Source of the DNA: Paucidesulfovibrio gracilis DSM 16080
GTDB lineage: Bacteria > Desulfobacterota > Desulfovibrionia > Desulfovibrionales > Desulfovibrionaceae
NCBI RefSeq assembly: GCF_900167125.1
Contig: NZ_FUYC01000002.1
Span: 124,001 to 188,000, forward strand
DNA: 64,000 bases
Direction: 5' to 3'
A program made the translations under genes and the position numbers. Below the pieces are notes generated by a model that did no database searches, was not told where the DNA came from, and saw only the letters and a list, made by a program, of their open reading frames with translations. The first letter of the stretch is position 1. Each line of letters starts with the position of its first letter. Positions 31,328-52,190 of the stretch are shown here, piece after piece.

Positions 31328-33205
31328 GTGGGCAAAAGGAACAGAGCGGATTCCACGGAAGCCCTGCTTGACGTCATTCGTGATGACGGTGAGCAGCGGT
31401 TGAATTTTCCGCAGTCGGCTTCCAAGGCGCCACGTTCCTCCCGACGGCAGAAGAAAAAAAACAAGCCTTCCAAAACCTCTTCCACTTCTTTGCGCACAGC
31501 GCGTCCTTCTTTGTTTTCCCGCAGCCGTAGCGCTGTTCTCGGCGTGGACATCGCCCAGGACACCATTACAGTCGTGAAGATGACCCGGGGTGATTCTCCG
31601 AAACTGCTGGATATTCAATCCGTGGCGTTGGAATCCGGGCTGGGTGTGGAGGAGCCGGGTCTTTCCGAGAAATTGCAATCCGTGCTGGGGCGCGTCGGAT
31701 CTCGCGGGTGTGATATTTGGGTGCTGCACCGTGCGCCGGATGTGGAAATCGGTGTTTCGCGGATTCCCCGCGTCAAGAGAGGGGAGCTGGCCAACACGGT
31801 GTACTGGCAGCTGCAAAAGGAGCGGCGGTTCAACAGTGCGGAGTTTGTGTTGGACTTTCGCGTCCAGGACGCCGCGGTCAAGGAAGGGGAGGTACCCAAG
31901 ATCGAGGTGCTCACCAGCCTTGCTGGTCGTGCGGATGTGGAGCGGCTTCGGCATCGATTTCGGGATGCCGGGTATTCCATTGCCGGGGTCACGGCTATTC
32001 CTGCTGCTTTTCAGAACATTTACCGCACCGGTTGGGCGGCTTCACGGTCGGGGCTGACAGCCAACCTGCATGTCGGAGCCACATTTTCCAGCATCACGAT
32101 CTACGAGGGCGCCGGCATTCGTTTCAGCCGGAGCATCAAATTCGGGCTGGACTCCATGGCCGAGGAATTGCTGGATAGCTACAACCGGGGTGAGCTGACC
32201 AAGGGGATGCCCGGGCATGAGCTGGACCAGCACGGGGCGCGGCTGCTGATTCTTGAGAAGCTCCTTGACGGGCCGCGAGCCAAAGGTGGTCCCGGCGGGG
32301 AGCTGAATAAGGCCCAGGTTCTCGAGTCCGTGCGGGATTCGTTGGAACGTGTGGCCCGGCAGGCAGAGCGTACGCTGGATTACTATGCACAGAATTTTCA
32401 TCAGCGTTGCGAAACCCTGCACCTGAGCGGCCGCATTTTCGGCAGCCCGGAGGTGGCGGAGTATGTGTCCGGCCAGTTGGCCTTGGACATGGAGATTTTC
32501 GATCCGCTCGGGGATCTGGATCTTTCCAGGCTTTCCGGACGGACCAGCCTGAGCGGACGCATGGCCATGAACGAGGCCGTGGCCGTGGCGCTTTCGGATC
32601 AGGGCAAGACCCTGAATTTTAGCCACAACTATCAGGCCCGGCGTCGCGACCGGACACGGGCCATGGTGGGCAATGCGGTATCCGTGTTCGTCATGGTCAT
32701 GGCCTTGCTGCTGGGCGGATTGTACGTCTGGAGCGGGGAGACCATCGCGGACCTGACCCAGAAGGCCCGGGAGATGGAAGAGCGGATTATGCCGGAGATG
32801 GCCCTGGACGAGGCGTCACTGGCCCGGCTTTCCGCCGAAGTCGGAGCCTATCGCGCCCGTATGCGCAACGTGGCCGAACGCTATGAGGCGTTGGCCGTGC
32901 TCACGGAATTGCAGCGGATAACTCCGGAGCGGGTGCGGCTTTTGAATATGAATATGGAGCTGCGTGTCGCGCCCGGCAAGGGGACGGCACAGCCCGCCGC
33001 CGGGGAGTCGCCCGTGCGCCTGCTGGTGCTGGATATGGTCATTCTCGGCGGCGAGGAAAATTTTGAAACGGATCTGACGCGGTACCTCATCGCGCTCAAG
33101 GCGTCGCCGTTGTTCGGCGATGTGGTGGTCCAGCAAGGCGAAGTGCGTGATTTCATCCCGGAAGGGGATGTTTTTCACGTGGTTTTGCATGTGCAAATGG
33201 CATAG
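31328..33205 (+). CDS. Type IV pilus PilM-PilN fusion (MshI/GspL-like)
   Basis: 625 residues from GTG 31328, with AAGGAG seven bases upstream. Residues 1-70 are basic and disordered. Residues about 70-430 are a PilM-type actin-like domain (AVLGVDIAQDTITVVKMT, NLHVGATFSSITIYEG). A single transmembrane segment at about 445-465 is followed by a periplasmic PilN-like coiled coil and ferredoxin-like domain. PilM and PilN are usually separate. GspL of type II secretion and MshI of MSHA pili share the joined layout. It anchors the cytoplasmic ATPase to the periplasmic alignment complex. First gene of the pilus operon; the PilO gene starts eight bases later. Confidence 0.85.
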   Translation: MGKRNRADSTEALLDVIRDDGEQRLNFPQSASKAPRSSRRQKKKNKPSKTSSTSLRTARPSLFSRSRSAVLGVDIAQDTITVVKMTRGDSPKLLDIQSVALESGLGVEEPGLSEKLQSVLGRVGSRGCDIWVLHRAPDVEIGVSRIPRVKRGELANTVYWQLQKERRFNSAEFVLDFRVQDAAVKEGEVPKIEVLTSLAGRADVERLRHRFRDAGYSIAGVTAIPAAFQNIYRTGWAASRSGLTANLHVGATFSSITIYEGAGIRFSRSIKFGLDSMAEELLDSYNRGELTKGMPGHELDQHGARLLILEKLLDGPRAKGGPGGELNKAQVLESVRDSLERVARQAERTLDYYAQNFHQRCETLHLSGRIFGSPEVAEYVSGQLALDMEIFDPLGDLDLSRLSGRTSLSGRMAMNEAVAVALSDQGKTLNFSHNYQARRRDRTRAMVGNAVSVFVMVMALLLGGLYVWSGETIADLTQKAREMEERIMPEMALDEASLARLSAEVGAYRARMRNVAERYEALAVLTELQRITPERVRLLNMNMELRVAPGKGTAQPAAGESPVRLLVLDMVILGGEENFETDLTRYLIALKASPLFGDVVVQQGEVRDFIPEGDVFHVVLHVQMA

Positions 33206-33213
33206 GGGCGAAC

Positions 33214-33771
33214 ATGTCCACTTGGCAGGAAGAATACAAGACCGTGGTGGTCAAGGCGGTGGGGGCGGTGGTCTGCTCCCTGGTGGTCGCCTGGATCTTC
33301 CTGGTGCCGCAGTTTCAGGAGTTGGTGTCGTTGCGTGAGCGGATTCACGACGCTGAAGAACGTCTGGAGCGTCAGGCCTTGTTTTTGCCCGAGTACGCAC
33401 GCCTGCACCGGCAGATGGAGCCGCAGTCCGAGGGCGCGTATGACGTGCCGCCCACCGAACCCGTGGATGTAAATACCATTGAGCGGTTGCCGTCGGAGAT
33501 GATCCGCCTGGCCGGGGATGCGGGCTTGCAGGTGCTGGATGTGGTGGTCAGCCCCGGGTCGCTGCGCACCGGGCAGGGCCGCATGATGATGCAGTGTGTG
33601 GTGCAGGGCGGGCTGGACGGGTTCAAGCAGATGTATCGAGCCTTGGCTGCGTTGCCCTATCTGGACAGGGTGGACCGGGTGGAGATGCGTGCGGCCCCTG
33701 GGGGCGCGGAATTTTTCCTGGAGCTGTGGGTTCTTTTGGAGGACCAGCGGACCGCCGGGGGGCAGGGATGA
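33214..33771 (+). CDS. PilO-like alignment-complex protein (MshJ position)
   Basis: 185 residues: a short cytoplasmic N-terminus, one transmembrane helix (about 13-32), a coiled coil (about 35-65), and a periplasmic ferredoxin-like domain with LAGDAGLQVLDVVVSPG and the C-terminal FFLELWVLLED. This is the PilO/GspM plan. Together with the PilN-like domain of the preceding protein it should build the inner-membrane platform. The stop overlaps the next start by four bases (ATGA), so translation is coupled. Confidence 0.78.
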   Translation: MSTWQEEYKTVVVKAVGAVVCSLVVAWIFLVPQFQELVSLRERIHDAEERLERQALFLPEYARLHRQMEPQSEGAYDVPPTEPVDVNTIERLPSEMIRLAGDAGLQVLDVVVSPGSLRTGQGRMMMQCVVQGGLDGFKQMYRALAALPYLDRVDRVEMRAAPGGAEFFLELWVLLEDQRTAGGQG

Positions 33772-34295
33772 AAAAGAGCGAAAAGATTTTGCTTGGCGTC
33801 CTGGCCGTGGTGTTGCTCTGGGCCGGATATATTTTGCTTTTGGATCCGAAGTCGGAATCCTCAATCCCGGAAGGCGGCGCAGGCGCGTATAAGACCCAAC
33901 TGGAGACCATGCGTCAGGATCTGGAGAAAAGCGCACTCACAGAAAAGGAACGTCGCATTGTGGCGCTCCTGGGCGAACACGCGCAAAACCGGCTGTTTTA
34001 CGCCGCGGACCGGCAATTTTATTTTACGGACGGCGAGGCGTTCGACACAGGCGACGAGGAAGCCATCGTGTACAGCGGATATTTGCAGGCCGGAAACGCG
34101 GCCTTTGCCATCATCAACGGCATTGAATACTCGGTGGGCGACCAGTTGGCGGTTTCCGGCTACCGGGTCAAGCGCATTGCCCCCGGGTTCGTCACCGTGG
34201 AGCACCTCGACCCGAATACGGGGCGGGCCTTTGAGCGGCGCATTCCCCTGGCCGAGGATGGTGTGGACGACGTAAGCCTGAAGGCGGTCTACTGA
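33768..34295 (+). CDS. PilP-like periplasmic linker protein (MshK position)
   Basis: 175 residues from ATG 33768. One N-terminal transmembrane helix (about 7-25) is followed by an extended helical linker and a C-terminal beta domain (about 95-175) with INGIEYSVGDQLAVSGYRVKRI. This resembles the homology region of PilP/GspC that contacts the secretin. The position between PilO and the secretin supports this. Sequence similarity is weak, so the assignment rests partly on gene order. Confidence 0.72.
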   Translation: MKKSEKILLGVLAVVLLWAGYILLLDPKSESSIPEGGAGAYKTQLETMRQDLEKSALTEKERRIVALLGEHAQNRLFYAADRQFYFTDGEAFDTGDEEAIVYSGYLQAGNAAFAIINGIEYSVGDQLAVSGYRVKRIAPGFVTVEHLDPNTGRAFERRIPLAEDGVDDVSLKAVY

Positions 34296-34297: not shown

Positions 34298-36013
34298 ATG
34301 AAGCCCTTTGTCCGATTTTTCATGGCCCTTTTCCTCTTCATCGGGGTGCTGGCCGGTTGTGCCTCCACATCCGAGCCGGATGCGATGGATCCGGAGATGG
34401 AAAAGTGGCGCATCATGGCCGAGCAGTCCCAGGGGCATTCCCCGTCGGCGCGCACCGAGGAACTGGACCGTTTCGAGGAAGTGGAAACCAGGGCCGAAAC
34501 CCTGGAACCCGAGGAAAAGAAGCAACCCAAAAAGCTTCCTGATTTCCGAATCACCCTGCGTATGCACAACGCCGATCTCGTGGCCGTACTTCAGGCGCTC
34601 TCCCGCGCCGCCAAGCAGAGCATCGTGGTCAGCCCCAGCGTGCAGGGCATGGTCAACATCAACATTGTCAAGACGCCCTGGGCCGAAGTGTTCAAGGGGG
34701 TGCTCAGTGCCAACCGGCTGAGTTACGCCTGGGAGGGCGACATCATCCGGGTGATGACCGCTGAGGACATGAAATACGAGCTGGAGATGGATCAGTTGCG
34801 GACGCAGCGGCAGGCCGAGCGGCTGGCCCAGCAACGCGCCGAACCCTTGGTCACCAGCATTATGAAAGTGAAGTTTTCCGACGCCGCGGCGCTGAAGGAA
34901 AATCTGGCTCCATTCCTGGCTAAGGACGGGGAGGGCGAACCGATCGGTTCCATCGAGGTGGACGAGCATACCAACGCCCTGATCGTCAGCAGCATCCGTT
35001 CCGATGTGGACCGGCTCATGCGCATCGTGACCCGGCTGGACGCGCCGCGTTCCCAGATCAAACTCAAGGCCCATATCGTGGAAACCACACGGGATACGGC
35101 CCGCGCTCTAGGCGTGCAATGGGGCGGCTCCTACCAGGGCAACCTTTATGATGGGTCCAATCTGTACGTCAATCCGGGCGGAACGACCGGCAGCACCACC
35201 TCCCAGTCCACCGGGGAGAGCCGCATGGGAACCTACGATCCCACACTGGGGACCGGTCCGTCCGGCAAGGGCGTGGGGATCAATTTGACGCCAAGCGGAT
35301 TCGACGAAGGCGGGACCGGCCTTTCCCTGGGCATGATGTTCGGCAACGTGGGGGAAAACCTCCTGGAAGTGCAGCTCAAGGCGCTGGAGCAGGATAACAA
35401 GCTCCGGATCATCTCTTCGCCGTCCATCACCACCATGGATAACCAAAAGGCCTACACCGAATCCGGTGAACGGGTGCCGTACGCTACCACCGAGACCAGC
35501 GGCGGCGTGGTCACCACCACCGTGAAGTTCGAGGAGGTGGTGCTCCGCCTGGAGATTACGCCCCACATCATCGATGATCAGTACATCAAGCTCAACGTGC
35601 TGATTCAAAAAGACGAAGTGGACGAATCCCGCGAGGTGGACGGAAACTATTTCATCCTCAAGAAAAAGACCGAAACCACGCTTATTGCCCGCGACGGCGA
35701 GACCGTGGTCATTTCCGGTCTGAGCAAGCAGCGTTCCTACCGCAACGAGGACGGTGTGCCTTATCTCAAGGATCTGCCCGGCGGCAATCGGTTGTTCGGC
35801 AGCGAGAGCAAGCAGGACACCATGGATGAATTCATGATCTTCATCACTCCCACGGTTTTGGCCAAGTGGGTGGCTGGTGAGCGGCAGAAAACGTTGCAGG
35901 AGATTGAGGAAGAGTTGGAAATCAAACGGCTTGAAGAACTTGAGGCTAGGCGTAAGGACGCGCGGGGCAAGGCCGGAGAGGGTTCGGAGCAAGCCGGGGG
36001 AGCCGGGCAATGA
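34298..36013 (+). CDS. mshL: Type IV pilus secretin (MshL/PilQ-like lipoprotein)
   Basis: 571 residues. A lipoprotein signal (VLAGC, Cys near residue 21) targets it to the outer membrane. A secretin-type N-domain (about 85-150) is followed by an N1 domain (about 180-250, with IGSIEVDEHTNALIVSS). The secretin core (about 255-520) contains the glycine/serine-rich gate region, VPYATTETSGG and the signature VVISGLSKQR. The C-terminal tail is charged. It is short like MshL and has one N1 domain, unlike long PilQ proteins with AMIN domains. It forms the pilus exit pore. Its last codons overlap the next gene by four bases. Confidence 0.92.
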   Translation: MKPFVRFFMALFLFIGVLAGCASTSEPDAMDPEMEKWRIMAEQSQGHSPSARTEELDRFEEVETRAETLEPEEKKQPKKLPDFRITLRMHNADLVAVLQALSRAAKQSIVVSPSVQGMVNINIVKTPWAEVFKGVLSANRLSYAWEGDIIRVMTAEDMKYELEMDQLRTQRQAERLAQQRAEPLVTSIMKVKFSDAAALKENLAPFLAKDGEGEPIGSIEVDEHTNALIVSSIRSDVDRLMRIVTRLDAPRSQIKLKAHIVETTRDTARALGVQWGGSYQGNLYDGSNLYVNPGGTTGSTTSQSTGESRMGTYDPTLGTGPSGKGVGINLTPSGFDEGGTGLSLGMMFGNVGENLLEVQLKALEQDNKLRIISSPSITTMDNQKAYTESGERVPYATTETSGGVVTTTVKFEEVVLRLEITPHIIDDQYIKLNVLIQKDEVDESREVDGNYFILKKKTETTLIARDGETVVISGLSKQRSYRNEDGVPYLKDLPGGNRLFGSESKQDTMDEFMIFITPTVLAKWVAGERQKTLQEIEEELEIKRLEELEARRKDARGKAGEGSEQAGGAGQ

Positions 36014-37623
36014 AATACCATGAGCGATTGGGGCTGGAGCGGGAACCGTTTTCCAGTTCCCCGGATCCGGAGTTCCTGTACTACTCCAAGCAGCACATCG
36101 CCTGCTTGCAGGAACTGGAGATCGCGGTGCGCCTTAAACGTGGACTCAATCTGGTCATCGGCGATATCGGCACGGGCAAGACCACGCTGTGCCGTCGATT
36201 CGTGCGCAATATGAGCCAAAATCGCAATATGGCCGTGAATTTGCTTCTGGACCCGGGCTTTGCCTCGCCCCGGGCGTTTTTGCGCGTGCTTTGCGCGCAG
36301 TTTTGCGGCGAACTGCCGGACAGCCGGCTCAGCGTCTGGTCCCTCAAAGAGATGATCAAAAAGGCCTTGCTGCGGCAGGGCATGCGCGAAGAGCGAACCG
36401 TGGTGCTGATCATCGACGAGGGGCAAAAAATGCCTCCGGAGTGCCTGGAAATATTGCGGGAATTGCTCAACTACGAGACCAACGATGCCAAGTTGTTGCA
36501 GATCATCATTTTTGCCCAGCGCGAACTGGAGCCTGTGGTGGAGTCCATGCCCAACCTGCTGGACCGGGTGAATTTTTATCATCGCCTCAAGCCGCTGGGA
36601 TTTCAGGAAATGCGCGAGATGGTCCGTTATCGGGTTGCCCAAGCCGCGGCCAGGGACAGCTTTGCTCCCGAACTGTTTACCTGGGGCGCATTTTTGGCCA
36701 TTCATCGCGCAACGGGCGGGTATCCTCGAAAGGTGGTGCGCCTTTGCCACAAATGCCTGCTGCAGATGCTCATCGCAGGCAAAACCCGTGTGACCCGTGG
36801 CATTGTACGCGGCTGCCTTCGCGAGGAGCGCCAGTTGCGTCCGCGTCGTCTTGCGTGGTTTGCGGGGGTGGCGGTCTCCTTGCTGCTGGTGGGCAGTCTT
36901 GCCGCCATTCGTTGGGTGCCGGAAGTGCGTTCCTTTGTTCCGGCCTTGGAATCGGCCCTGGCTTCTGTGCCGGGCATGGGGGACTCTTTCGCTTCATCCT
37001 CCCCGGAAGGCGGTGCTTGGGACGAAGCGCCCGGACAGGATGTTCCCGACCCGACCGACGCTCAAGGCGGAGGAGCATTGGAGCCGTTCGTACCTAGCGC
37101 GGAATTGCCCGAGGTCTTCGGCGCGTTGCATCTGGCCCGGGGAGAGAGTCTTTCCGAGGCGGTGCGTTCCGTGTACGGCACGTTTGACCGCGGTTTGCTG
37201 GATGAGGTGCTGCGGTTGAACCCGCATGTGTCGGAACCGGACAGGGTGCCTGCGGCCGCCATGCTGCGTTTTCCCCTGGTATCGCCCCGGGACGGGATGT
37301 TGCCCCGCCAGCTGTATTGGGTGCGCCTGGACTCGGCCGCCAGCCTGGAAAAAGCGCATGCACGGCTGCGGCAATACACGTTTTTTGATCTGCGGCTTCG
37401 GCTGTTGCCCGAGTACACCCAGGTGGGCGGACTGCGCTTCCAGGTCGTGTTGGAGCGGCCCAGCCTGGAAGAGGACCGCGCTCGGCAGCTGTTTGAAACG
37501 TTGCCTCTGGCTTTGCAAAAGGATGCGGATATTTATCGACCAGCCCGGGAAACTGTTTCCCTGGGACAGGTCGATTCCGTGGTGCTCGAAACCCTGGCCC
37601 AGTCTCGGGACGGGGAAGGTTAA
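36010..37623 (+). CDS. mshM: AAA ATPase, ExeA/MshM-like, with C-terminal transmembrane region
   Basis: 537 residues. The start YHERLGLEREPFSSSPDPEF is typical of ExeA/GspA/MshM proteins. Walker A is GDIGTGKTTLC (near residue 51-61) and Walker B VLIIDEGQKM. A transmembrane helix near residues 285-305 separates the cytoplasmic ATPase from an extracytoplasmic part of about 230 residues with a proline/aspartate-rich linker and a C-terminal domain of unknown fold. ExeA helps secretin assembly by binding peptidoglycan; a similar role is likely here. It overlaps the secretin gene by four bases. Confidence 0.88.
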   Translation: MKYHERLGLEREPFSSSPDPEFLYYSKQHIACLQELEIAVRLKRGLNLVIGDIGTGKTTLCRRFVRNMSQNRNMAVNLLLDPGFASPRAFLRVLCAQFCGELPDSRLSVWSLKEMIKKALLRQGMREERTVVLIIDEGQKMPPECLEILRELLNYETNDAKLLQIIIFAQRELEPVVESMPNLLDRVNFYHRLKPLGFQEMREMVRYRVAQAAARDSFAPELFTWGAFLAIHRATGGYPRKVVRLCHKCLLQMLIAGKTRVTRGIVRGCLREERQLRPRRLAWFAGVAVSLLLVGSLAAIRWVPEVRSFVPALESALASVPGMGDSFASSSPEGGAWDEAPGQDVPDPTDAQGGGALEPFVPSAELPEVFGALHLARGESLSEAVRSVYGTFDRGLLDEVLRLNPHVSEPDRVPAAAMLRFPLVSPRDGMLPRQLYWVRLDSAASLEKAHARLRQYTFFDLRLRLLPEYTQVGGLRFQVVLERPSLEEDRARQLFETLPLALQKDADIYRPARETVSLGQVDSVVLETLAQSRDGEG

Positions 37624-37644: not shown

Positions 37645-39360
37645 GTGGCAAAACGGCAGCGCAAACGACTGGGAGACCTGCTCATTGAGGCAGGACTCAT
37701 CACCCAGGAGCAGCTGAAGGAAGCTCTGCAGGGGCAGAAGCAGACCAAGCTTAAGCTGGGCCAGTACATGATTCAGACGGGCATGATCAAGGAAGGGGTC
37801 ATGCTCTCCACCCTGTCCACGCAACTGCGCATCCCGCAATATCAGCCCGACAAATACCCTTTTGAGGAAGGGGTCGCGGAGCTGGTTTCCGAACAGATCG
37901 CCCAGAAGAACCGCGTGGTTCCGCTGCAACGCAAAGGCCCGTTGCTCATTGTGGCCATGCCCGATCCTATGGACATCACGGCCCTTGATACCGTGGAAAT
38001 CGCCTCCAATATGGAGGTGGAGCCGGTCATTTGTTCGGAAAATGACTATGAGATGCTCTTTTCCACCATCTATGGCCGTGGTTCGTTGCAGGACGACACC
38101 TATGAAGGGCTGGTGGATGAGGCTGTCGGGGCCGAGGATCCGGGCGAGGCTGCGGCCGAGAATGAGCTGAATGTCGACGCGCTCACGGACATGGCGGAAC
38201 AGGCGCCTGTCATCCGCATGGTCAACTCCATCCTCAACCAGGCCGTGCGCGAAAACGCCAGCGATATCCACATCAGTCCGGAGCGGGATTATGTGACGGT
38301 ACGCTACCGTGTGGATGGCAAGCTGCGGTCCGTGCCTGCGCCGCCCAAATCCATTTTTCTTCCTTTGGTTTCGCGCATGAAAATCATGGCGAATATGGAT
38401 ATCGCCATCAGCAAGATTCCCCAGGACGGCCGCTTTTCCTTTCATACGCAAAATCGTGAATTCAACGTGCGTGTTTCCTCACTGCCCACCATCTATGGCG
38501 AAAACCTGGTGCTGCGACTTCTGGACCGCAACGCCCACGGTCTGACCTTGGATGAGCTGGGCTTTTCCCGGTTCGACCGAACCAAGGTGGAGCAGGCCAT
38601 CCGCCAGCCCTACGGTATGATCCTTGCCGCCGGACCCACGGGCAGCGGCAAGACAACCACGCTGTATTCCTTTTTGCGGGCCATCAAAAATGATGAAATC
38701 AATATCATTACCCTGGAGGATCCGGTGGAATACCGGATCGACAAAATTCGTCAGGTGCAGCTCAACACCAAGGCGGGCATGACCTTTGCCTCGGGATTGC
38801 GGTCCATCTTGCGGCAGGATCCGGATGTGGTGCTGGTGGGAGAGGTTCGCGACCACGAAACAGCGGAAATTGCCACGCAATCGGCCCTGACCGGACACCG
38901 GGTGCTCTCCACGCTGCACACCAACGAGGCTGCGGGGGCGATCACGCGATTGGTGGAAATGGGGCTGGAACCGTTTCTTGTGGCCTCGGTCTTGCTTCTG
39001 TCCGTAAGCCAGCGGCTGGTACGGAAGATTTGTCCGTATTGTCAGGAACCATACGATCCGCAGGATTACCTGATCAAGTCGTTCGGGTTATGGAATGTGC
39101 GCGACCGGGTCACGTTTATGCGGGGCAAGGGGTGTCCCCAATGCGGGCAGTCCGGATTTCGGGGGCGTTTGGCATTGTTTGAAATTTTGCAGGTGGATGA
39201 AATGGTGCAGGATATGATTCTGCATCGGGCTTCGTCGCAGGAGATCACCCGTGCGGCGGTGCGGGGCAAGACCATGCAGACGCTGAAGATGGATGCGGCG
39301 CGCAAGGTGGCGGCCGGTCTGATCACCCTGGAGGAAGCGGCTTCCGCCATTATGCTCTAG
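37645..39360 (+). CDS. mshE: Pilus extension ATPase (MshE/PilB-like) with c-di-GMP-binding MshEN repeat
   Basis: 571 residues from GTG 37645 with GGGAGG eight bases upstream. Residues 8-31 and 37-60 are two 24-residue repeats with exactly five residues between. The first fits the MshEN pattern fully (RLG, then GLI, L, L and Q at the expected places); the second has KLG in place of RLG and M for one leucine. In V. cholerae MshE this domain binds c-di-GMP. The GspE/PilB core has Walker A GPTGSGKTT, an Asp box with ITLEDPVEY, Walker B VVLVGEVRDHETA, and a four-cysteine zinc site (CPYC and CPQC). It powers pilus assembly. Confidence 0.94.
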   Translation: MAKRQRKRLGDLLIEAGLITQEQLKEALQGQKQTKLKLGQYMIQTGMIKEGVMLSTLSTQLRIPQYQPDKYPFEEGVAELVSEQIAQKNRVVPLQRKGPLLIVAMPDPMDITALDTVEIASNMEVEPVICSENDYEMLFSTIYGRGSLQDDTYEGLVDEAVGAEDPGEAAAENELNVDALTDMAEQAPVIRMVNSILNQAVRENASDIHISPERDYVTVRYRVDGKLRSVPAPPKSIFLPLVSRMKIMANMDIAISKIPQDGRFSFHTQNREFNVRVSSLPTIYGENLVLRLLDRNAHGLTLDELGFSRFDRTKVEQAIRQPYGMILAAGPTGSGKTTTLYSFLRAIKNDEINIITLEDPVEYRIDKIRQVQLNTKAGMTFASGLRSILRQDPDVVLVGEVRDHETAEIATQSALTGHRVLSTLHTNEAAGAITRLVEMGLEPFLVASVLLLSVSQRLVRKICPYCQEPYDPQDYLIKSFGLWNVRDRVTFMRGKGCPQCGQSGFRGRLALFEILQVDEMVQDMILHRASSQEITRAAVRGKTMQTLKMDAARKVAAGLITLEEAASAIML

Positions 39361-39547
39361 CCGTGTTCCGAGCCGGCGTTGTCCTGCCCCTTGCGCAGGG
39401 TGCGACCGAGCGGTAACGGAATGAAGCGCGCCGCGACGGTTTGTTCGGCGATAATGGAAAACCGTGCGGTTCATCGGCTGGGAAGACGCCTTTGCGGTAG
39501 CGTAAACCGCCTGCGGGCGGAGAGAGCATTTTTTGTTGGAGGGATCG

Positions 39548-40783
39548 GTGCCGGTTTTTACATACAAGGCCATGGGGAACGACGGGGCCAAGGCCTCGGG
39601 CACCCTGGAGGCGGAGTCCCTGGAGCAGGCGTATGAAAAGCTCCTGGGCCAGGGATACATTCCGTCCATGGTCAAACCCGGCGGACGGCTCAAGACCCGG
39701 ACAGAAACCGAAGCGGGCGGTTTTGCCACGCGGTTCACCAAGGTCAAGGCCCGCGATGTGATCCTGTTCACCAAGCAGTTGCGCACCATGCTCAATGCGG
39801 GAATCCCCGTGCTCCAGTCCCTTCAGACGTTGCTGGGCCAGATGGAGAACCCCAAGCTCAAGGCCGCCGTGGAACAGATTGCCAAGGACATCGCGGGCGG
39901 TGCGTCCATGTATCGGGCCTTTGGCCGCCAGAAGCATATTTTCAGCAATCTGTACAGCAACATGATCCGTGCCGGAGAAATTTCCGGAACACTCATTCAG
40001 GTGCTGGACCGGCTGATCTACATTGTGGAACATGAGAACAAGGTCCGCAAAGACATTCAGAGCGCCCTGACCTATCCCATCATCGTGGTGGTGGCCCTGG
40101 TGGTGGCCTTTGTGGTGTTGGTTACCTTCGTGCTTCCCAACTTCATCACCATGTTTGAAAGTCAGGGCGTGGAATTGCCCTGGCCCACCCGCGTGTGCAT
40201 GGGTATTCACGCCTTTTTCGTGGGGTATTGGCAAATCGCGGTGACCGGTTTGATCGCGGGGGCGTTCGGCATCTGGTACTGGGCCAAGACGGATAAGGGG
40301 CGGCTGTTTTTCGATACGCTGCTTTTGAGCTTGCCCATTCTTGGTCCCGTGTTCGTTAAGGCGGCCATGTCCCGGTTTGGAAGCATTTTCGCTATTTTGC
40401 AGTCCAGCGGCATCACGGTGTTGGAAAGCGTGCAGATTATTTCCGGCACCATTGGCAACGCGGCCGTGGCCAAGCAGTTCGACAACGTGCGCGAGATGTT
40501 GGAGCAGGGGCGGGGACTGGCTGCACCGCTCAAGCAGGCAAAATATTTCACCCCAATGTTGGTGACCATGGTGGCCATCGGCGAGGAATCGGGCCAGCTT
40601 GAGGAGATGCTCAAGGATGTGGCCCAGCATTACGACTACGAGGTGGAGTATTCGGTGGGGCGCATGAGCGAATTGCTCGGGCCGGTGCTGGTGGCGTGCC
40701 TGGCCGGGGTGGTGGGGTTTTTTGCCCTGGCGGTCATGTTGCCCATGATCGATATGATGACGTCGGCTATGGCCGGTATGTGA
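39548..40783 (+). CDS. mshG: Pilus inner-membrane platform protein (PilC/GspF/MshG)
   Basis: 411 residues from GTG 39548, which has GGAGG five bases upstream. PVFTYKAMGNDGAKASGTLEA is the standard start. Two T2SSF domains (about 70-190 and 275-400) each end in transmembrane helices; RDVILFTKQLRTMLNAGIPVLQSL and MVAIGEESGQLEEML are family motifs. It is the rotor or platform that the extension and retraction ATPases act on. A 187-base gap to mshE holds small inverted repeats (for example GCGGT-N7-ACCGC around 39494-39510), perhaps mRNA stability elements. Confidence 0.94.
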   Translation: MPVFTYKAMGNDGAKASGTLEAESLEQAYEKLLGQGYIPSMVKPGGRLKTRTETEAGGFATRFTKVKARDVILFTKQLRTMLNAGIPVLQSLQTLLGQMENPKLKAAVEQIAKDIAGGASMYRAFGRQKHIFSNLYSNMIRAGEISGTLIQVLDRLIYIVEHENKVRKDIQSALTYPIIVVVALVVAFVVLVTFVLPNFITMFESQGVELPWPTRVCMGIHAFFVGYWQIAVTGLIAGAFGIWYWAKTDKGRLFFDTLLLSLPILGPVFVKAAMSRFGSIFAILQSSGITVLESVQIISGTIGNAAVAKQFDNVREMLEQGRGLAAPLKQAKYFTPMLVTMVAIGEESGQLEEMLKDVAQHYDYEVEYSVGRMSELLGPVLVACLAGVVGFFALAVMLPMIDMMTSAMAGM

Positions 40784-40940: not shown

Positions 40941-41354
40941 ATGGAACGGACGAAACAACGTCGTAGGCAGGGCGGTTTCACGCTCATCGAACTCATCACC
41001 GTGATCATCATCCTCGGCGTACTCGCCGCCGTGGTGACTCCCCGGTATTTCGACATGGTCAGCGAGGCTGAGACCGCCGCTGCGGAAGGTGCCGCTGCCG
41101 AAGGTGTGGGACGCTTCAATCTGGCGTATGCCAAGTATGTTATGGACAACAACCAAGCTCCAGCCAACCTCGCGGCGCTCCAGGGCGATACCTACCTGGG
41201 TACCGATGCTTCGGATGTTGTCGTGGCTGGTGATTTCCAGTTCACCTACAGCGTTGCCAACGACGTGGTGACCGTGGCCGTGGCCACCGACCCGGACGGG
41301 GACGGCACCTACACGGATACGGGCGTCAGCAAGACGTTTGACTGGCCCGACTAA
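40941..41354 (+). CDS. Type IV prepilin, probable major pilin (MshA/MshB-like)
   Basis: 137 residues from ATG 40941 with GGGAGGG upstream. The leader MERTKQRRRQG is cut before FTLIELITVIIILGVLAAVV, the standard class IVa prepilin site with Glu at mature position 5. The globular part is short and acidic and ends in FDWPD. It is followed by a terminator, which would favour its higher expression, and by a paralogous prepilin. The major-pilin role is inferred from position and the terminator. The prepilin peptidase is not in this window. Confidence 0.88.
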   Translation: MERTKQRRRQGGFTLIELITVIIILGVLAAVVTPRYFDMVSEAETAAAEGAAAEGVGRFNLAYAKYVMDNNQAPANLAALQGDTYLGTDASDVVVAGDFQFTYSVANDVVTVAVATDPDGDGTYTDTGVSKTFDWPD

Positions 41355-41381: not shown

Positions 41382-41414
41382 GGTCCGGAGGAGTGCGCTT
41401 CTCCGGACCTTTTT
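41382..41414 (+). terminator. Terminator or attenuator between the two prepilin genes
   Basis: A perfect nine-base stem (GGTCCGGAG at 41382-41390, CTCCGGACC at 41401-41409) with a ten-base loop is followed by five T. It lies inside the operon, 28 bases after the first prepilin stop, so partial read-through to the second prepilin, pilT and pilU is expected. Confidence 0.8.
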
Positions 41415-41430
41415 GCAAGGAGGACTCCTG

Positions 41431-41850
41431 ATGCCCGGGGGACGCAGACGGGACGGACAAAGCGGATTCACCCTGATTGAGGTCATTGTGGTCCTGGTGA
41501 TTCTCGGTGTGCTGTCCGGGGTGATTGCTCCAAACTATTTCAGCATGGTACAAGAGTCCGATACCGCCATGGCCCGGGGAGCCGCTTCCGAAGGGCTGGG
41601 ACGCCTCTATTCCGCTGTGGGGCTGTATTATGTCCATGAAAAATCCCGTCCCACGGGGCTTTCCCAATTACGCGGCGATGCCTACCTGGGGACTGATGAA
41701 TCCGACCAGCTTGATCTGGGGGAGTATCGGCTCAGCTTTAGCCAAACCAATGGCGGGGAAAGCGTGCGCATTGCAGTGGAAGCGCTGACCGATCAGGGCG
41801 GGTACCGGGATACGGGCGTGGTCCTCATCCAAGAGTGGCCCATGGAATAA
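41431..41850 (+). CDS. Second type IV prepilin, paralogue of the upstream one
   Basis: 139 residues from ATG 41431 with AAGGAGG seven bases upstream. The leader MPGGRRRDGQSG precedes FTLIEVIVVLVILGVLSGVI. The two prepilins align along their length: PNYFSMV versus PRYFDMV, RGAASEGLGRLYSAV versus EGAAAEGVGRFNLAY, LRGDAYLGTDESD versus LQGDTYLGTDASD, and both end in a DTGV...W-P segment. This indicates a local duplication, as for mshA and mshB. It probably serves as a minor or alternative pilin. Confidence 0.88.
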   Translation: MPGGRRRDGQSGFTLIEVIVVLVILGVLSGVIAPNYFSMVQESDTAMARGAASEGLGRLYSAVGLYYVHEKSRPTGLSQLRGDAYLGTDESDQLDLGEYRLSFSQTNGGESVRIAVEALTDQGGYRDTGVVLIQEWPME

Positions 41851-41905
41851 CGGATTCACCTTTTCGCCACTCGGCTTGACGGCGGGCGACCCGACAGGAA
41901 GCAAC

Positions 41906-42964
41906 ATGGCCAAGATCAACGCGTTTTTCAAAATGCTCCACGAGCACGGCGGCTCGGACCTGCACCTCAGCGCGGGAGCACCGCCCATGTTGCGTCTGCG
42001 GGGCGATCTGCAACGGATCAAGTACAAGCCGTTCAGCGACGAGGATCTCAAGAAACTGCTCTTTGAGATAACCCCGCAAGCCAAAATCAAAGAGTTTGAA
42101 GAAACCGGGGATGTGGATTTCGCTTATGAAGCCCCGGGACTGGCCCGGTACAGGGTCAATTTTTTTCGTCAGCACCGGGGCGTGGGCGCGGTATTTCGTG
42201 AGATTCCCCAGCACGTCCTGACCACCGAACAACTTGGCCTGCCCCCGCAACTGGCGGAAATGGCCATGCTGGAAAAAGGCATCGTGCTGGTCACCGGTCC
42301 CACGGGCAGCGGAAAATCCACCACGTTGGCCGCCATGCTTGATCACGCCAACAAGAAGCGGCGGGACCACATCCTGACCATCGAAGATCCCATCGAGTTC
42401 GTGCATCCATCCCAGGGATGCCTGATCAACCAGCGCGAGGTGGGGCGGCATACCGGGAGTTTCAAGGCGGCCTTGCGCGGCGCGCTACGGGAGGATCCGG
42501 ACATCATCCTCGTGGGCGAGATGCGCGACTATGAAACCATTGCCCTGGCATTGGAGGCTGCGGAAACCGGGCATCTGGTGCTCTCCACTCTGCATACCGT
42601 GTCCGCGGTCAAAACCATTGACCGGATTATCGAGGTGTTCCCCGAGGACATGCAATCCCAGGTGCGCTCCAGTTTTGCGGATTCATTTAAAGCCGTCATC
42701 TCTCAGACCCTGATGAAGCGGGCCGACGGGTCCGGGCGTGTGGCTGCCGTGGAAATCTTGCGCGGCACGCCGGCCGTGCGTAACCTGATCCGCAAGGGCG
42801 AGAACCATCAGATCCCTTCGGTCATGCAGACCAACAAGCATCTGGGCATGCAACCCCTGGACGACCACATTCGGGAGTTGCTCGAACAGGGCGCCATTGA
42901 CCGTGCCACGGCCCGGCATCATGCCCTGGACCGCAGCAAATTTGAAGATCCTCAGGAACCGTGA
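41906..42964 (+). CDS. pilT: Pilus retraction ATPase PilT
   Basis: 352 residues from ATG 41906 with AGGAAG upstream. GGSDLHLSAGAPPMLRLRG is the PilT N-terminal hallmark. Walker A is GPTGSGKSTTLA, the Asp box TIEDPIEFVH, Walker B IILVGEMRDYETI, and the retraction signature AIRNLIR appears as AVRNLIRKGENHQ. PilT hexamers pull pili in. In MSHA loci pilT is usually elsewhere; here it directly follows the prepilins. Confidence 0.94.
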   Translation: MAKINAFFKMLHEHGGSDLHLSAGAPPMLRLRGDLQRIKYKPFSDEDLKKLLFEITPQAKIKEFEETGDVDFAYEAPGLARYRVNFFRQHRGVGAVFREIPQHVLTTEQLGLPPQLAEMAMLEKGIVLVTGPTGSGKSTTLAAMLDHANKKRRDHILTIEDPIEFVHPSQGCLINQREVGRHTGSFKAALRGALREDPDIILVGEMRDYETIALALEAAETGHLVLSTLHTVSAVKTIDRIIEVFPEDMQSQVRSSFADSFKAVISQTLMKRADGSGRVAAVEILRGTPAVRNLIRKGENHQIPSVMQTNKHLGMQPLDDHIRELLEQGAIDRATARHHALDRSKFEDPQEP

Positions 42965-42999
42965 TGCGGGTTTCCGTTTCGGAAACCAAGGAGCCGCTC

Positions 43000-44169
43000 A
43001 TGCAACCCGCCCGATTTCGCGCCATGGTCGCGGCCATCCTGCAACGCTGGTCCCAGGCCTCGGACATCCTCTTCACCGTGGGAACCAGCGTCCAGGCCGA
43101 GGTAGACGGTCAATTGCGGGCTGTGCGTCTGAAGGACATGCCCGAACTCACGCCCGAGGCCACACGAAGCATCGCGGAGTGTCTGCTGGGCGACCGGCTG
43201 GCGTTGCGCCGCAATCTTTCGGAACATGGCTCCTGCGATCTTTCCTGGGCCTTGGGCGGGACGGCTCGGTTCCGGGTCAACGTGTTTCGTCAGCGGGGCC
43301 GCTATGCCGTGGTCATGCGCCGTTTGCCTGAGCGTGTGCCGGAAATGGAGGAATTGCAGCTCCCGCCGGTGTTTGCGGAAATGGCGCAGGAGCGGCAGGG
43401 GCTGGTGCTGGTCACGGGCGGCACGGGCGCGGGCAAGAGCAATTCTTTGGCTTCGCTCATCCAGACCATCAACCGGACGCGGCCGGTCCACATCGTCACG
43501 CTTGAAGATCCCATTGAATTTGTGCATGAGCACGCCAAAGGCGTTGTAAACCAGCGGGAATTGCATACGGATTTTGATTCCTTTGCCTCGGGGTTGCGTG
43601 CGGCCCTGCGCCAGGCGCCCAAGGTGATCATGGTCGGGGAAATCCGGGATCGGGCAACCATGGAAATCGTATTGCAGGCGGCCGCTACCGGCCATCTGGT
43701 CCTGGCCACGCTGCACACGTCGGATGCCGCAGGAACCGTGCAGCGGGTGCTCGGATTGTTTGAACCGCATGAGGAACGACTGGCGCGTATGCAGCTGGCC
43801 GCGCATTTGCGTTGCGTGGTGTCTCAGCAATTGCTGCCTCGCGTGGACGGACCCGGTCGGGTGCCGGTCTTCGAGATTCTTCGCAATACGTTGAGCGTCC
43901 GGGAGCTGGTGCTTCAGGGCGAACGCAGCGACAGAACGCTGTATTCCGTTCTGGAGCAGGGTACGGCCCAGGGCATGCAGACCTTTGATCAGCATTTGTT
44001 CCAGTTGTACGAACAGGGCGTGATCAGCGAGGAGAATGCATTGTTGGCCGCCGGGGATCGGGCCTTGCTGCTTCAGCGTATTGACTTGTTCAAGTCCGGC
44101 CGTGGGGAAGGCACGGACGAACTGCGCCTCGGTGGGTTGGAACCGGATCTGGACGCGGATTTACGCTAG
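43000..44169 (+). CDS. Second PilT-type ATPase (PilU-like)
   Basis: 389 residues from ATG 43000, chosen for its AAGGAG six bases upstream. Alternative starts GTG 42961 and ATG 42964 overlap the pilT stop and would add 12-13 residues. Walker A is GGTGAGKSN (the second T/S differs from PilT), the Asp box TLEDPIEFVHEH, and Walker B VIMVGEIRDRATM. The N-terminal ASDILFTVG replaces the usual SDLHL, and the C-terminus is about 35 residues longer than PilT. PilU proteins assist PilT during retraction. It is the last gene of the operon. Confidence 0.88.
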   Translation: MQPARFRAMVAAILQRWSQASDILFTVGTSVQAEVDGQLRAVRLKDMPELTPEATRSIAECLLGDRLALRRNLSEHGSCDLSWALGGTARFRVNVFRQRGRYAVVMRRLPERVPEMEELQLPPVFAEMAQERQGLVLVTGGTGAGKSNSLASLIQTINRTRPVHIVTLEDPIEFVHEHAKGVVNQRELHTDFDSFASGLRAALRQAPKVIMVGEIRDRATMEIVLQAAATGHLVLATLHTSDAAGTVQRVLGLFEPHEERLARMQLAAHLRCVVSQQLLPRVDGPGRVPVFEILRNTLSVRELVLQGERSDRTLYSVLEQGTAQGMQTFDQHLFQLYEQGVISEENALLAAGDRALLLQRIDLFKSGRGEGTDELRLGGLEPDLDADLR

Positions 44170-44371: not shown

Positions 44372-46000
44372 CTACATGTCGATGATTTTGTGCGCGATTT
44401 CATCACCGATGCTGGTGATGAACGGAATGCCGGTTTCACGCTCGGTTTCACGGTTGCCCGAGGCAATGTCGCCACGGCTGATGGCGGAAAGCTCGAACTT
44501 GCGCACACCGGCCAGGAGCTGCTGCAGAGCGGCGGAGAGCTTGTCCACCAGACACCAGACGCCCACGGCGCCGTAGGGGATGTCCTTCATGGCGTCCTTG
44601 CCGACCTTGGCTTCCACATCGTGCCAGCAGGCGAAGATTTCTTCGGCGGAATGGCCGTATTTGGCCACGGAAGCCGGGAGCTTGTCCCAGTTTCCGTTCA
44701 CGGCTTCGCGGCGATCCGGGCGCAGCACGCCTTCGATGTTGGATCCCACAAAACCGGGAACCATCATGGCGCGGCCCATGCAGATCAGTTTGGAGAAGGG
44801 AGCGCCCATGGCCAGTGCTTTGAAGATGTTGCTGCCCTTGGCGAATCCTCCGGCAAAGGAAAGGTCCACCACGTTTTCGCCCTTGGCGGCCAGACGAGTG
44901 GCATACTCGTGGGCCTTGGCGTGCAGCAGCACCGAGGGAACGCCCCAGGATTCCATCATGTTCCAGGGGGACATGCCCGTGCCGCCGCCGGAACCGTCGA
45001 TGGTCAGCAGGTCCAGTTTGGCTTCAGAGGCGAACTTGATGGCCATGGCCAGCGCTTCCATGCCGTAGGAACCGGTCTTGAGGGAAATGCGCTTGAATCC
45101 GAGCTTGCGCAGGTATTCAACCGTGCTCATGAAGTCGTCGTGGACCTGGTCAAAGCTGCTCAGGTCCGTGTAGCCCAGGCGGCTGTGGCGGGCAAAGGTG
45201 TGGATCGCACCGTTTTTAAAGGCTTCCTGTACGGAGGGCTTTTCAGGATCGGGGTCCACGAGGTAGCCGCGCTGCTTCAGGAACAGGGCGTAATCCAGGC
45301 TGGTGACTTCGATTTCGCCGCCGATATTCTTGGCACCCTGGCCCCATTTCAGCTCGATGATGACGTCGTCGCCATACTTTTCAGCCACGTATTCGGCCAC
45401 GCCGTTGCGGGTGTCCTCCACGTTGAGCTGGACGATAATGGCACCGTACCCATCGTAATATTTACGGTAAATATCAATACGGCGGTCCAGTTCCGGGGCC
45501 GAAGATATGCGGCCCTTCTCGATTTTGGAATCGCGGTCCACGCCCACGACGTTTTCACCGATCACGATGGGGGCGCCCACAAGAGCGCAGCCCACGGCAA
45601 AAGCGTCCCAGTATTTTGCGGCGATGAAGGTGGAACCGAGGGCGCCGGTCATGAACGGAACGCGGCATTTTGTTTTTTCATCCGCGCCAAAAGAGGTCTC
45701 CAGGTTCACGTCGGTGAACAGGAAATCGCCATTTTCACCGGGGGTTCCGAATGCACCGTAGTTGTTGCCCTGGATGCGAACAGAGTTGTAGCTGACGCCT
45801 ACATGTGTCGTATTGCCGCTGCCAGCGGTGACGAGACCGAAGTCACGCGGGTACAACATTTCTCTTCCGCGAAGGGAAGAGAGCCATGTTTCACATTTGC
45901 CCTGACAGTCAGCCCTGCAAAGCGTGCACAGTCCGGATTCAATAGCGTTACCACGGTTCACGGATCCAAGAACATCATTCGATTTAGGCCAGTTATTCAT
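44372..46000 (-). CDS. FMN-binding glutamate synthase-family protein (stand-alone GltS core)
   Basis: 542 residues from ATG 46000 with AAGGAG eight bases upstream. The first 45 residues contain a Cys cluster CTLCRADCQGKC (C-x2-C-x3-C-x3-C). The rest is the FMN/glutamate-synthase barrel, with LLTIDGSGGGTGMSPW, DLSFAGGFAKGSNIFKALAMGA and CMGRAMM. The glutaminase and beta-subunit domains are absent. This matches the archaeal-type glutamate synthases common in sulfate reducers. These may use ammonia or separate glutaminase subunits, but none is encoded adjacent here. The upstream region has overlapping palindromes at 46168-46184. Confidence 0.9.
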   Translation of the reverse strand: MNNWPKSNDVLGSVNRGNAIESGLCTLCRADCQGKCETWLSSLRGREMLYPRDFGLVTAGSGNTTHVGVSYNSVRIQGNNYGAFGTPGENGDFLFTDVNLETSFGADEKTKCRVPFMTGALGSTFIAAKYWDAFAVGCALVGAPIVIGENVVGVDRDSKIEKGRISSAPELDRRIDIYRKYYDGYGAIIVQLNVEDTRNGVAEYVAEKYGDDVIIELKWGQGAKNIGGEIEVTSLDYALFLKQRGYLVDPDPEKPSVQEAFKNGAIHTFARHSRLGYTDLSSFDQVHDDFMSTVEYLRKLGFKRISLKTGSYGMEALAMAIKFASEAKLDLLTIDGSGGGTGMSPWNMMESWGVPSVLLHAKAHEYATRLAAKGENVVDLSFAGGFAKGSNIFKALAMGAPFSKLICMGRAMMVPGFVGSNIEGVLRPDRREAVNGNWDKLPASVAKYGHSAEEIFACWHDVEAKVGKDAMKDIPYGAVGVWCLVDKLSAALQQLLAGVRKFELSAISRGDIASGNRETERETGIPFITSIGDEIAHKIIDM

Positions 46001-46740
46001 ATGTGTCTCCTTCATTCAGAAAGTTGCTCAACCTACGGAAAAAAACGGCGCGCCGTCAAGGAAAACCCGCAAGTTTTGTCATTTTTGGGAACAAAAAAAG
46101 GAAAGCAGGGTTCTGAGTGGGAAAATTTGGCAGTGTTTAGTTGCATAATTGTAAAAAGATGGATTGTGAACACTGTTCGAACAGCAACAAAATTGCAGTT
46201 GAATTGCAGACAAAGCAGGTCAAGAATAATGGTGGAAAAATAGCCCGCACCGGTGAATATTTATGAGGGTACAGGCCGGATATTTTTGTAAAAAAATAAA
46301 GCTGTCGAGTGGGTGTTCCGTGGAGTCTTAAACCGCGTTTTGGTGAGAAAATACGTCAAAAATATCAAATTACGCATGCTCAAGAGGCGCAACGACGCGC
46401 AAAAATGGGGGAGCAAGGTCTGCTGCATGGGAAAAAACGTTTTATGTCCCTTGTGCTGCACGTCGGAACCGTGGCTTGTAGCTCGGCGTCCGTCGTTTGG
46501 GGGGGGGAGGATGGAACCTGGAGCGGCATCATGCGACCATTCGCAGAGGCCCAGGGGCGCAGGGCCACCAAAAATGGCAGGTACCCGGGAGCGGAATTGT
46601 CCCTGGCCGATCCGCTCGTGGGGGAATGGGGACAATGGGGGACCGTTGGCCCGAAGAAACATGGAGTCTCGGGTTGGTGGCGCGGCAGGGAGGCCCGGCG
46701 CAAGTGAACGATTGGAGAAAGGCTGTCCCGTTGCAGGCGG
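46001..46740. other. Intergenic region upstream of glutamate synthase and downstream of the diguanylate cyclase
   Basis: About 740 bases. Bases 46001-46400 are AT-rich and carry likely control sites: a perfect 12-base palindrome ACGGCGCGCCGT at 46045-46056 and overlapping palindromes at 46168-46184. Bases 46400-46740 are GC-rich; open frames occur on both strands but overlap each other, lack ribosome sites and look random. Confidence 0.5.
46168..46184. promoter_or_regulatory. Overlapping palindromes, possible operator
   Basis: GAACACTGTTC (46168-46178, near-perfect) overlaps the perfect palindrome CTGTTCGAACAG (46173-46184). The site is about 170 bases upstream of the glutamate synthase start. 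The sharing of GAAC/GTTC half-sites suggests cooperative binding of a dimeric regulator. Confidence 0.35.
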
Positions 46741-47718
46741 TCAGGAGGACTCGGGCGGGCAGGGCTGACCTTCGGCATTGATGATTTGGTCGCGGCCCGC
46801 TTTTTTTGCCTTGTAAAGAGCTTTGTCGCTGGCGGCCACCAAGGGAGAAGATTCGGCCCCGGGGAGCGGAACCGTGGCGGCAACACCGATGCTCACCGTA
46901 ACATGATCGCTGATGGAGGAATCCGGGTGGGGCATGGCCAGGGTTGCAAGCTGATTCTGGATGGCACGGGCCAGGCGGCATCCTCCCTCCATATCGGTAT
47001 CCGGCAGCAGGGCGATGAACTCCTCACCGCCGAAGCGGGCCAGAAAGTCGGCAGGACGGCGAAATGCGTTTTGGATCGCATGAGCCACGGCTTTCAGACA
47101 CTTGTCACCTTCCAGGTGTCCCAACGCGTCATTGTAGCGCTTGAAAAAATCAATGTCGATCATGAGCAGGCTGAGGGGAGCCTGATCCCGCGCACACCGC
47201 TGCCATTCCTGGGCCAAAGTGGAGTCGAAATGCCGCCGGTTGGCTACGCCGGTAAGCCCGTCCAGACTGGACAGAGCCTCCAGTTCCCGGGTCATGCGTT
47301 CGAGTTCCAGTTCGCGGATTTTGCGTTGGTCCATCTCCTGCTTGAGGCGCTGGGCGGAGCCGACCCGGGCGCACAGTTCCACCCGGTGCACCGGTTTGGT
47401 GATGTAGTCGTTGGCTCCGGCGGCGAAGGCGCCTTCCAGGTCTTCCAGGCGGTCGCTGGCGGTAACCATGATTACGGGAATATCTGTATATCTGGGTTTG
47501 GATTTGAGTTGCCGGGTGGCATCAATGCCGTTGGCATCCGGCATTTCAAGGTCCATCAGTATCACGTCTGGAAGCTCCTGCTCCGGGGTGCGATCAAGCA
47601 GGGCCAGGGCTGCGGCAAAGCCCTCGGCGTCCTCGGCCCCGCCGAATCCCTCGGCATGCAGCACCGTTTTCAGCAGCAGCCGGGATGTTTCGGAATCATC
47701 AATAATAAGCAGGCGCAT
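46741..47718 (-). CDS. Response-regulator diguanylate cyclase (receiver-GGDEF)
   Basis: 325 residues. The receiver (about 1-125) has LLIIDDSETSR, the phosphorylation site VILMDLEMPDANG and the conserved lysine in ITKPVH. A coiled linker leads to the GGDEF domain (about 160-315) with GGEEF and an RxxD inhibitory site (RPAD) five residues before it. Phosphorylation should favour dimerisation and c-di-GMP synthesis, as in WspR or PleD. It lies between the two pilus clusters, next to a small secreted protein gene, and is a good candidate source of c-di-GMP for the MshE-like ATPase. Confidence 0.93.
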   Translation of the reverse strand: MRLLIIDDSETSRLLLKTVLHAEGFGGAEDAEGFAAALALLDRTPEQELPDVILMDLEMPDANGIDATRQLKSKPRYTDIPVIMVTASDRLEDLEGAFAAGANDYITKPVHRVELCARVGSAQRLKQEMDQRKIRELELERMTRELEALSSLDGLTGVANRRHFDSTLAQEWQRCARDQAPLSLLMIDIDFFKRYNDALGHLEGDKCLKAVAHAIQNAFRRPADFLARFGGEEFIALLPDTDMEGGCRLARAIQNQLATLAMPHPDSSISDHVTVSIGVAATVPLPGAESSPLVAASDKALYKAKKAGRDQIINAEGQPCPPESS

Positions 47719-47720
47719 GG

Positions 47721-48023
47721 TTACGGCTCGTCGTGAATGATAATATCGCCGTAGCGAATGGTTGTTTCGGCGGGGGATTCCGCGTTGCGTTCCTGCCGGG
47801 GGGATGCCGGTTTTTCCGAGTGCTGGAGGGAGTGCTGCTGTTCTTCCCGTTGCTTTTGTTCTTCGGCAAGGCGCTCCTGGATGATTTTTTGTTGTTGGAG
47901 TGCTTCTTCCTCGGTCTTGGGGCGGTCGGGCAGGGACGGGTCGGGCGGGCCGAACCCCAAAGCAGGAGTCCCGACCAGACCGGCCAGCAGGAGCAGCACG
48001 GCGGTGGCAGCGAACGGTTTCAT
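47721..48023 (-). CDS. Small secreted glutamine/glutamate-rich protein
   Basis: 100 residues. A signal peptide (cleavage near ALG-FG, residue about 23) precedes a highly charged coiled-coil-like stretch (about 38-70, rich in Glu, Gln and Lys) and a C-terminus IRYGDIIIHDEP. It resembles no family I know. It sits two bases upstream of the diguanylate cyclase start and 33 bases after the lectin-pilin gene on the same strand, so it may belong to the minor-pilin operon. Confidence 0.65.
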   Translation of the reverse strand: MKPFAATAVLLLLAGLVGTPALGFGPPDPSLPDRPKTEEEALQQQKIIQERLAEEQKQREEQQHSLQHSEKPASPRQERNAESPAETTIRYGDIIIHDEP

Positions 48024-48056
48024 ATGGCGTCGTATCCTTGCAGGGTGCGGTTGCGG

Positions 48057-50315: not shown

Positions 50316-50505
50316 CGTGACCTCGTTGGTTTCCGCGCCGGGGCGCGGCAGGGTGCCGGCGGAGCATTGCGGCAAGGCGTTCTGTTGTGCTGCCGCGCAA
50401 CAAGCACGTTCCTGCGTGCTGCCGCTGTGCGTCGGTTTGCTGCTATGTTCCTGCCACATCTCGCATTTGCTGAACGGCCTGGGCTGGATCGTGGGCAGCG
50501 GCCAG

Positions 50506-51030
50506 CTAGAGCCGGATGAATTCGCGCGGCGTGACCCGCAGTTCAAACACAGGGCCGGTGCCGTTGATGCGGAACGTGACGTTGATGGCGGATATTTCCT
50601 GATTTGAAGCGTCGCCATCCGTGTTGGCTTGATCCACCCGCAACGTGAAGTCCGTGACATTGTCCAGCAGCAGGTGGCTATCCGTTCCCTTGTCCAGATA
50701 TAAATCCGTACCCGCGAGTCGGATTTGCCGCACGCCGGACAGCAGAGGCTCCGTGGTTTCATATTGCAGCGACACATCCGGGGTGAGCGTGACGGTGGAG
50801 CCGCCGCCCAGGCCCGTGATGAGCCGGAACTCCGAGGAGAGCCGGTTCAGCGTGTTGTGCGCGGCCTGCGCGCTGCGAGACGATTCACTGGTGATCAGAT
50901 AGCTGTTCATGGCCAGGGAAACGAACATGGCCCCGGCAATGGCGATGATGGAAAAGATCAACACCGAGATGATGAGTTCCACGAGGGTGACGCCGCGTTG
51001 CGTCGGGTCCGTGTCGCGGCTTCGGCGCAT
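50506..51030 (-). CDS. PilW-like minor pilin (MshO position)
   Basis: 174 residues. The leader MRRSRDTDPTQRG precedes VTLVELIISVLIFSIIAIAGA, a standard prepilin site with Val at +1 and Glu at +5. The remainder is a beta-rich domain with SRSAQAAHNTLNRLSSEFRLI, typical of the PilW/MshO/GspJ class. It starts one base into the preceding PilV-like gene stop (TGATG). About 190 bases separate it from the lectin-pilin gene. It likely primes pilus assembly with the neighbouring minor pilins. Confidence 0.85.
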   Translation of the reverse strand: MRRSRDTDPTQRGVTLVELIISVLIFSIIAIAGAMFVSLAMNSYLITSESSRSAQAAHNTLNRLSSEFRLITGLGGGSTVTLTPDVSLQYETTEPLLSGVRQIRLAGTDLYLDKGTDSHLLLDNVTDFTLRVDQANTDGDASNQEISAINVTFRINGTGPVFELRVTPREFIRL

Positions 51031-52015: not shown

Positions 52016-52190
52016 TGTTCCTGAAACATAGCAAATCGGCTCCCTAGCGTAAAGCGCACGTGCGTCATCCAATCGCCGGAAAACCTTGACGCAGTTGCAA
52101 CATAACGACATCGGCCCGTCACCTGGAAAGCGTACTTCCTTGGGCATCGAAACAACCTGATTTCGTCACCCAGCAAAGGAGAATGGACTT

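Follow-up and report, generated by a model that had tools for sequence, protein, structure and literature searches.

Does the extension motor of a type IV pilus in Paucidesulfovibrio gracilis answer directly to c-di-GMP? The question is raised by a gene in the window, that is, the whole stretch of 64,000 nucleotides analysed here, whose product had been predicted from the letters alone to be a pilus assembly ATPase carrying a two-repeat MshEN c-di-GMP-binding motif. Direct control of pilus motors by c-di-GMP, as shown in Vibrio and Thermus, would thereby be extended to a gene cluster of the Desulfovibrionaceae and other Desulfobacterota, organisms which matter in metal corrosion and in the sulfur cycling of sediments. 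The titles and abstracts of the Desulfovibrio biofilm literature that we found describe c-di-GMP control for response regulators (PMC4114195) and for a Lap-like adhesin system (PMC13090378), and none of them describes such control of pilus motors. Searches that combined MshE and c-di-GMP with type IV pili of Desulfovibrio returned no literature, while those for MSHA in Desulfovibrio and for MshEN in the Deltaproteobacteria returned no paper that was relevant by its title and abstract. As a protein, the ATPase is an ordinary further member of the described MshEN family, which automatic annotation with the model NF053729 would name.

The gene lies in a run of pilus genes on the plus strand, composed as follows.

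31328 to 33205, plus strand: PilM-like platform protein of 625 aa in the MshI-like position (TIGR01175, 67.6 bits, below cut-off; synteny)
33214 to 33771, plus strand: small protein in the MshJ-like position (weak GspM-like match; synteny)
33765 to 34295, plus strand: small conserved protein in the MshK-like position (synteny; no family match found)
34298 to 36013, plus strand: PilQ/MshL-like secretin (TIGR02515, 308.9 bits, over the cut-off of 284)
36010 to 37623, plus strand: ExeA/MshM-like AAA ATPase (profile match)
37645 to 39360, plus strand: MshE-type pilus extension ATPase of 571 aa, with a GTG start and GGGGAGG upstream; T2SSE ATPase domain at residues 184-565 (family match)
39533 to 40783, plus strand: GspF/PilC/MshG-like platform protein, T2SSF (profile match)
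40944 to 41354, plus strand: type IV prepilin 1 (profile match)
41413 to 41850, plus strand: type IV prepilin 2 (profile match)
41876 to 42964, plus strand: PilT retraction ATPase (TIGR01420, 462.8 bits, cut-off 319)
42961 to 44169, plus strand: PilU-like second retraction ATPase (TIGR01420, 385.6 bits)

In Vibrio the MSHA genes run mshI-J-K-L-M-(N)-E-G and are followed by the pilins. Here the order is PilM-like gene, two small genes, secretin, AAA ATPase, extension ATPase, T2SSF gene and pilins. From the PilM-like gene to the platform gene it is kept across relatives in the Desulfovibrionaceae and other Desulfobacterota, and in nearer relatives the pilins, PilT and PilU come next. The best full-length matches of the ATPase include PilB and PilF, and the nearest named locus belongs to a Desulfovibrio MAG (90% identity). 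The formal names of the cluster proteins are uncertain: since the ATPase falls below the curated cut-offs of both the PilB equivalog (TIGR02538, 558.2 bits under 675.65) and the GspE equivalog, and the secretin below that of the MshL model (TIGR02519, 96 bits under 250.2), the label 'MSHA-like' rests on gene order.

The catalytic part of the protein is intact, with a Walker A motif (GPTGSGKT) at residue 330, the Asp box at 356, Walker B at 388 and the His box at 416; two CxxC motifs lie at residues 463 and 497. A genome-wide profile search found no second MshEN match, the product of 37645-39360 being the sole MshEN protein, and no other extension ATPase, the remaining T2SSE matches being PilT, PilU and a CpaF/TadA-type protein. 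A c-di-GMP response by way of another extension ATPase is thus ruled out.

The N-terminal region is built as follows.

37666 to 37737, plus strand: MshEN repeat I, residues 8-31, RLGDLLIEAGLITQEQLKEALQGQ (NF053729; consensus count)
37753 to 37824, plus strand: MshEN repeat II, residues 37-60, KLGQYMIQTGMIKEGVMLSTLSTQ (NF053729; consensus count)
37828 to 38079, plus strand: C-terminal half of the MshEN domain, residues 62-145, carrying D107 (PF05157 match)

In the translated reading frame the two 24-residue segments lie exactly where the original prediction had placed them, separated by the five residues KQTKL. The interval to which it assigned them, 37645-37824, does contain both repeats; it spans residues 1-60 only, while the full MshEN domain continues to about residue 145. 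Against the strict 2016 consensus, RLGxx(L/V/I)(L/V/I)xxG(L/V/I)(L/V/I)xxxxLxxxLxxQ (PMC5013675), repeat I matches at 11/11 positions and repeat II at 7/11. The departures are indeed confined to repeat II, as had been said; K37 and M53 had been named, and the milder M42 and M47, which occupy hydrophobic places in the core, had been omitted. With a relaxed alphabet (R, K or L at position 1; M counted as hydrophobic) 22/22 positions match and the best of 5000 protein shuffles reaches 15, but this alphabet was picked with the sequence already seen, so that for an unbiased test of the motif one has to turn to NCBIfam. Its model NF053729 describes exactly the two-repeat motif (cyclic di-GMP-binding domain, MshE-related) and is matched over its full length of 53 positions with 60.3 bits (E 1.1e-16; cut-off 38). 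With the PF05157 match to the following half, the search with the MshEN profiles suggested beforehand is positive for both halves of the domain.

A structure model of residues 1-152, built using 36 homologues (pLDDT 89), has helices at 9-15, 21-34, 38-44 and 50-61, which form the four-helix bundle, and then an alpha/beta half. This predicted fold agrees with the assignment: the nearest solved structure is the V. cholerae MshE/c-di-GMP complex 5HTL (TM 0.80/0.87, rmsd 2.1 Å, 138 columns, 33% identity), a second structure comparison gave Z 17.7 over 138 residues for the same entry, and the c-di-GMP-bound structures of PilF GSPII-B rank close behind. Since the non-binding XpsE (2d28, Z 14.9) and PilF GSPII-A (9g1w) are also structurally close to the model, the MshEN fold alone is no proof of binding.

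The contact positions of MshE map to R8, L9, G10, L24, L28 and Q31 in repeat I and to K37, L38, G39, M53, L57 and Q60 in repeat II, 10/12 being identical to MshE and the two differences being K37 (R38) and M53 (L54); D107 is equivalent to MshE D108. The loss of key Arg or Leu contacts, named beforehand as what would speak against the motif, is not seen, all of them being kept or conservatively replaced when compared with PMC5013675. The lysine, which had been listed as a departure, calls for a correction. PilF GSPII-B, with K and L in its stacking positions, binds c-di-GMP at 6 nM, and its K167R-E170D double mutant at 92 nM, K167R alone being similar, i.e. weaker (PMC11731258); since K occurs in high-affinity members, K37 is no weakness. 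M53 lies outside the extended consensus of the same study, yet is conservative. At the position of MshE L54, 29 homologues have I, nine L, seven M and four V, and a reconstructed PilF domain behaved visibly alike with I or L at the positions of MshE 54/58 (PMC12002112). Within the same 53 residues, the entropy at contact as against non-contact positions is 0.65 vs 1.89 among 35 Desulfobacterota sequences, with 0/20,000 permutations as low, and 0.34 vs 1.07 among 11 close sequences (P 0.0013), a conservation that may partly reflect folding, not ligand.

How else could these features be explained? That the resemblance of the repeats is due to chance or composition has a negligible probability and is ruled out by the NF053729 score, which far exceeds the curated cut-off, by the shuffles with their maximum of 15/22 and by the match of the predicted fold to 5HTL. 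More deserving of attention, albeit very unlikely, is the reading of the protein as GspE, the ATPase of type II secretion, in which case the regulated process would be protein secretion and not pilus extension; the matches to the GspE (TIGR02533) and GspF (TIGR02120) models are strong, and the pilins resemble GspG/GspH. Nonetheless these matches, of 556.5 bits for the ATPase and 352.6 bits for the platform protein, stay under the curated cut-offs of 630.25 and 424, the secretin clears that of PilQ, and the pilin genes, in relatives as well as here, are immediately followed by those of the retraction motors PilT and PilU.

Somewhat less improbable, though still judged unlikely, is that the MshEN fold has been kept while useful affinity for c-di-GMP has been lost, the domain acting solely as a link between the ATPase and the inner-membrane platform, in the manner of the non-binding N domains of GspE/XpsE type. 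An MshEN fold without c-di-GMP binding is known from XpsE (PMC5013675) and PilF GSPII-A (PMC12002112), both of which match the model; repeat II retains just 7/11 strict positions, M53 sits within the guanine-2 cluster, and Q31 is replaced by H, G, A, K or P in other Desulfobacterota homologues. However, the known losses involve several drastic changes, in non-binding XpsE G11V, L29R, G40L, Q61V and others (PMC5013675), none of which is present here, whereas the changes in this protein are all conservative ones that spare the two glycines and the two glutamines, and a lysine such as K37 is documented in binders. By analogy with V. cholerae MshE and Thermus PilF, the N-domain very probably does bind c-di-GMP.

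Among the Desulfobacterota homologues of MshE, the residue corresponding to Q31 is G in L049, L057, L060, L067, L068 and L070, and H in L012, L013, L016, L019 and L023. Replacement of this ribose-phosphate glutamine of repeat I may mark weaker or lost binding in several of them. Separately, at least three consecutive matches to the MshEN c-di-GMP motif occur in open frames some 750 aa long at G078:C3:510962-511732, G119:C20:537099-537869 and G141:C69:12403-13173, and likewise at L045, L054 and L052.

The prediction of a pilus assembly ATPase with an MshEN domain is thus supported by sequence models, predicted fold, comparison of contacts and conservation of contact positions, and the mechanism that we propose builds on what is established here, namely the domain, its contact residues, its predicted fold, the intact ATPase motifs and the conserved cluster. 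We consider it likely, with good confidence, that this ATPase drives the extension of an MSHA-like type IV pilus and that its MshEN domain binds c-di-GMP. One molecule of c-di-GMP would be bound, with one guanine per repeat: R8 and K37 would stack on the outer guanine faces, the clusters L24-L28-L38 and L9-M53-L57 would pack against the inner faces, the backbone amides at G10-D11 and G39-Q40 would contact the Hoogsteen edges, and Q31 and Q60 would hold the ribose-phosphate. Binding would move the ATPase to its active state, such that extension would be favoured at high c-di-GMP, and at low c-di-GMP the adjoining PilT/PilU retraction motors would dominate. In V. cholerae, MSHA extension is promoted by the binding of c-di-GMP to MshE, and the non-binding G11I variant has no pili (PMC7096442); by analogy with this system and with Thermus PilF, c-di-GMP probably promotes pilus extension here.

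Such control presupposes a supply of the ligand. Profile searches of the genome gave 28 GGDEF, 10 EAL and 16 HD_5 matches, by which the genome makes and degrades c-di-GMP, and 9 PilZ matches. Two of the cyclases lie in the window, as had been pointed out in favour of the prediction.

14858 to 16105, minus strand: diguanylate cyclase of REC-GGDEF type that has GGEEF and an inhibitory RxxD site, unlinked to the pilus cluster
46741 to 47718, minus strand: diguanylate cyclase of the same type, likewise with GGEEF and RxxD, whose gene is the last in a putative minor-pilin cluster

Both are present, but with 28 GGDEF matches genome-wide (0.56 expected in 64 kb; P of two or more 0.11) their number carries little weight, and we reject it as support; one of them is nevertheless a conserved neighbour. 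The minus-strand cluster 46741-52147 to which it belongs holds three prepilin-like genes (from 52147 to 50506, upstream of the cyclase), a gene whose product of about 750 aa begins like a pilin and has a C-terminal LamG domain, and a 100-aa gene that stops two bases before the cyclase starts; it looks like the minor-pilin and tip-adhesin set of the adjoining pilus. Between pilU and this cyclase lies a glutamate-synthase-domain protein (44372-46015, minus strand), which adjoins pilU also in L006 (92% identity) and is missing there in G013 and G147.

An ortholog of the 46741-47718 cyclase adjoins pilU in G013, of the same genus (72%), and in G147, of another genus, the best match of that genome (50%) is separated from the pilU match by about 60 bases; the ortholog loci beside pilU are L074 3676-4905 and L072 1208-2173. 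Two further genera, represented by G028, G060, G029 and G061, lack the cyclase at the pilT-pilU end, as do most of about 30 other mshE loci beside the cluster in a simple GGDEF pattern scan that may miss degenerate domains, and we therefore reject a family-wide cyclase beside the pilus cluster. That the cyclase is a dedicated local source of c-di-GMP for MshE is suggested by its place next to pilT-pilU and by its being kept beside the cluster in a second genus; we regard the idea as tentative and rather doubtful. If true, one two-component signal would set the balance of extension and retraction of one pilus.

Of the known systems, V. cholerae MshE (5HTL, PMC5013675, PMC7096442) shares with the present protein the two 24-residue repeats and five-residue spacer, the four-helix bundle with its alpha/beta half, the contact residues including D107 (D108), and the fusion to a T2SSE ATPase that serves a pilus retracted by PilT. 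It differs in having R38 and L54 where K37 and M53 stand here, the identity of the domains being 33%; here, moreover, the pilins are followed within one cluster by pilT and pilU, and the secretin scores below the cut-off for MshL. Thermus thermophilus PilF GSPII-B (8PDK, PMC11731258) is alike in fold and in the lysine at the guanine-stacking position of one repeat, but that lysine belongs to repeat I and its repeat II begins with leucine, whereas the present protein has R in repeat I and K in repeat II; another difference is that PilF carries three MshEN-type domains in tandem. With PilB (3JC8 from Myxococcus, and 5TSG) the protein shares its ATPase architecture, while scoring below the cut-off of the PilB equivalog.
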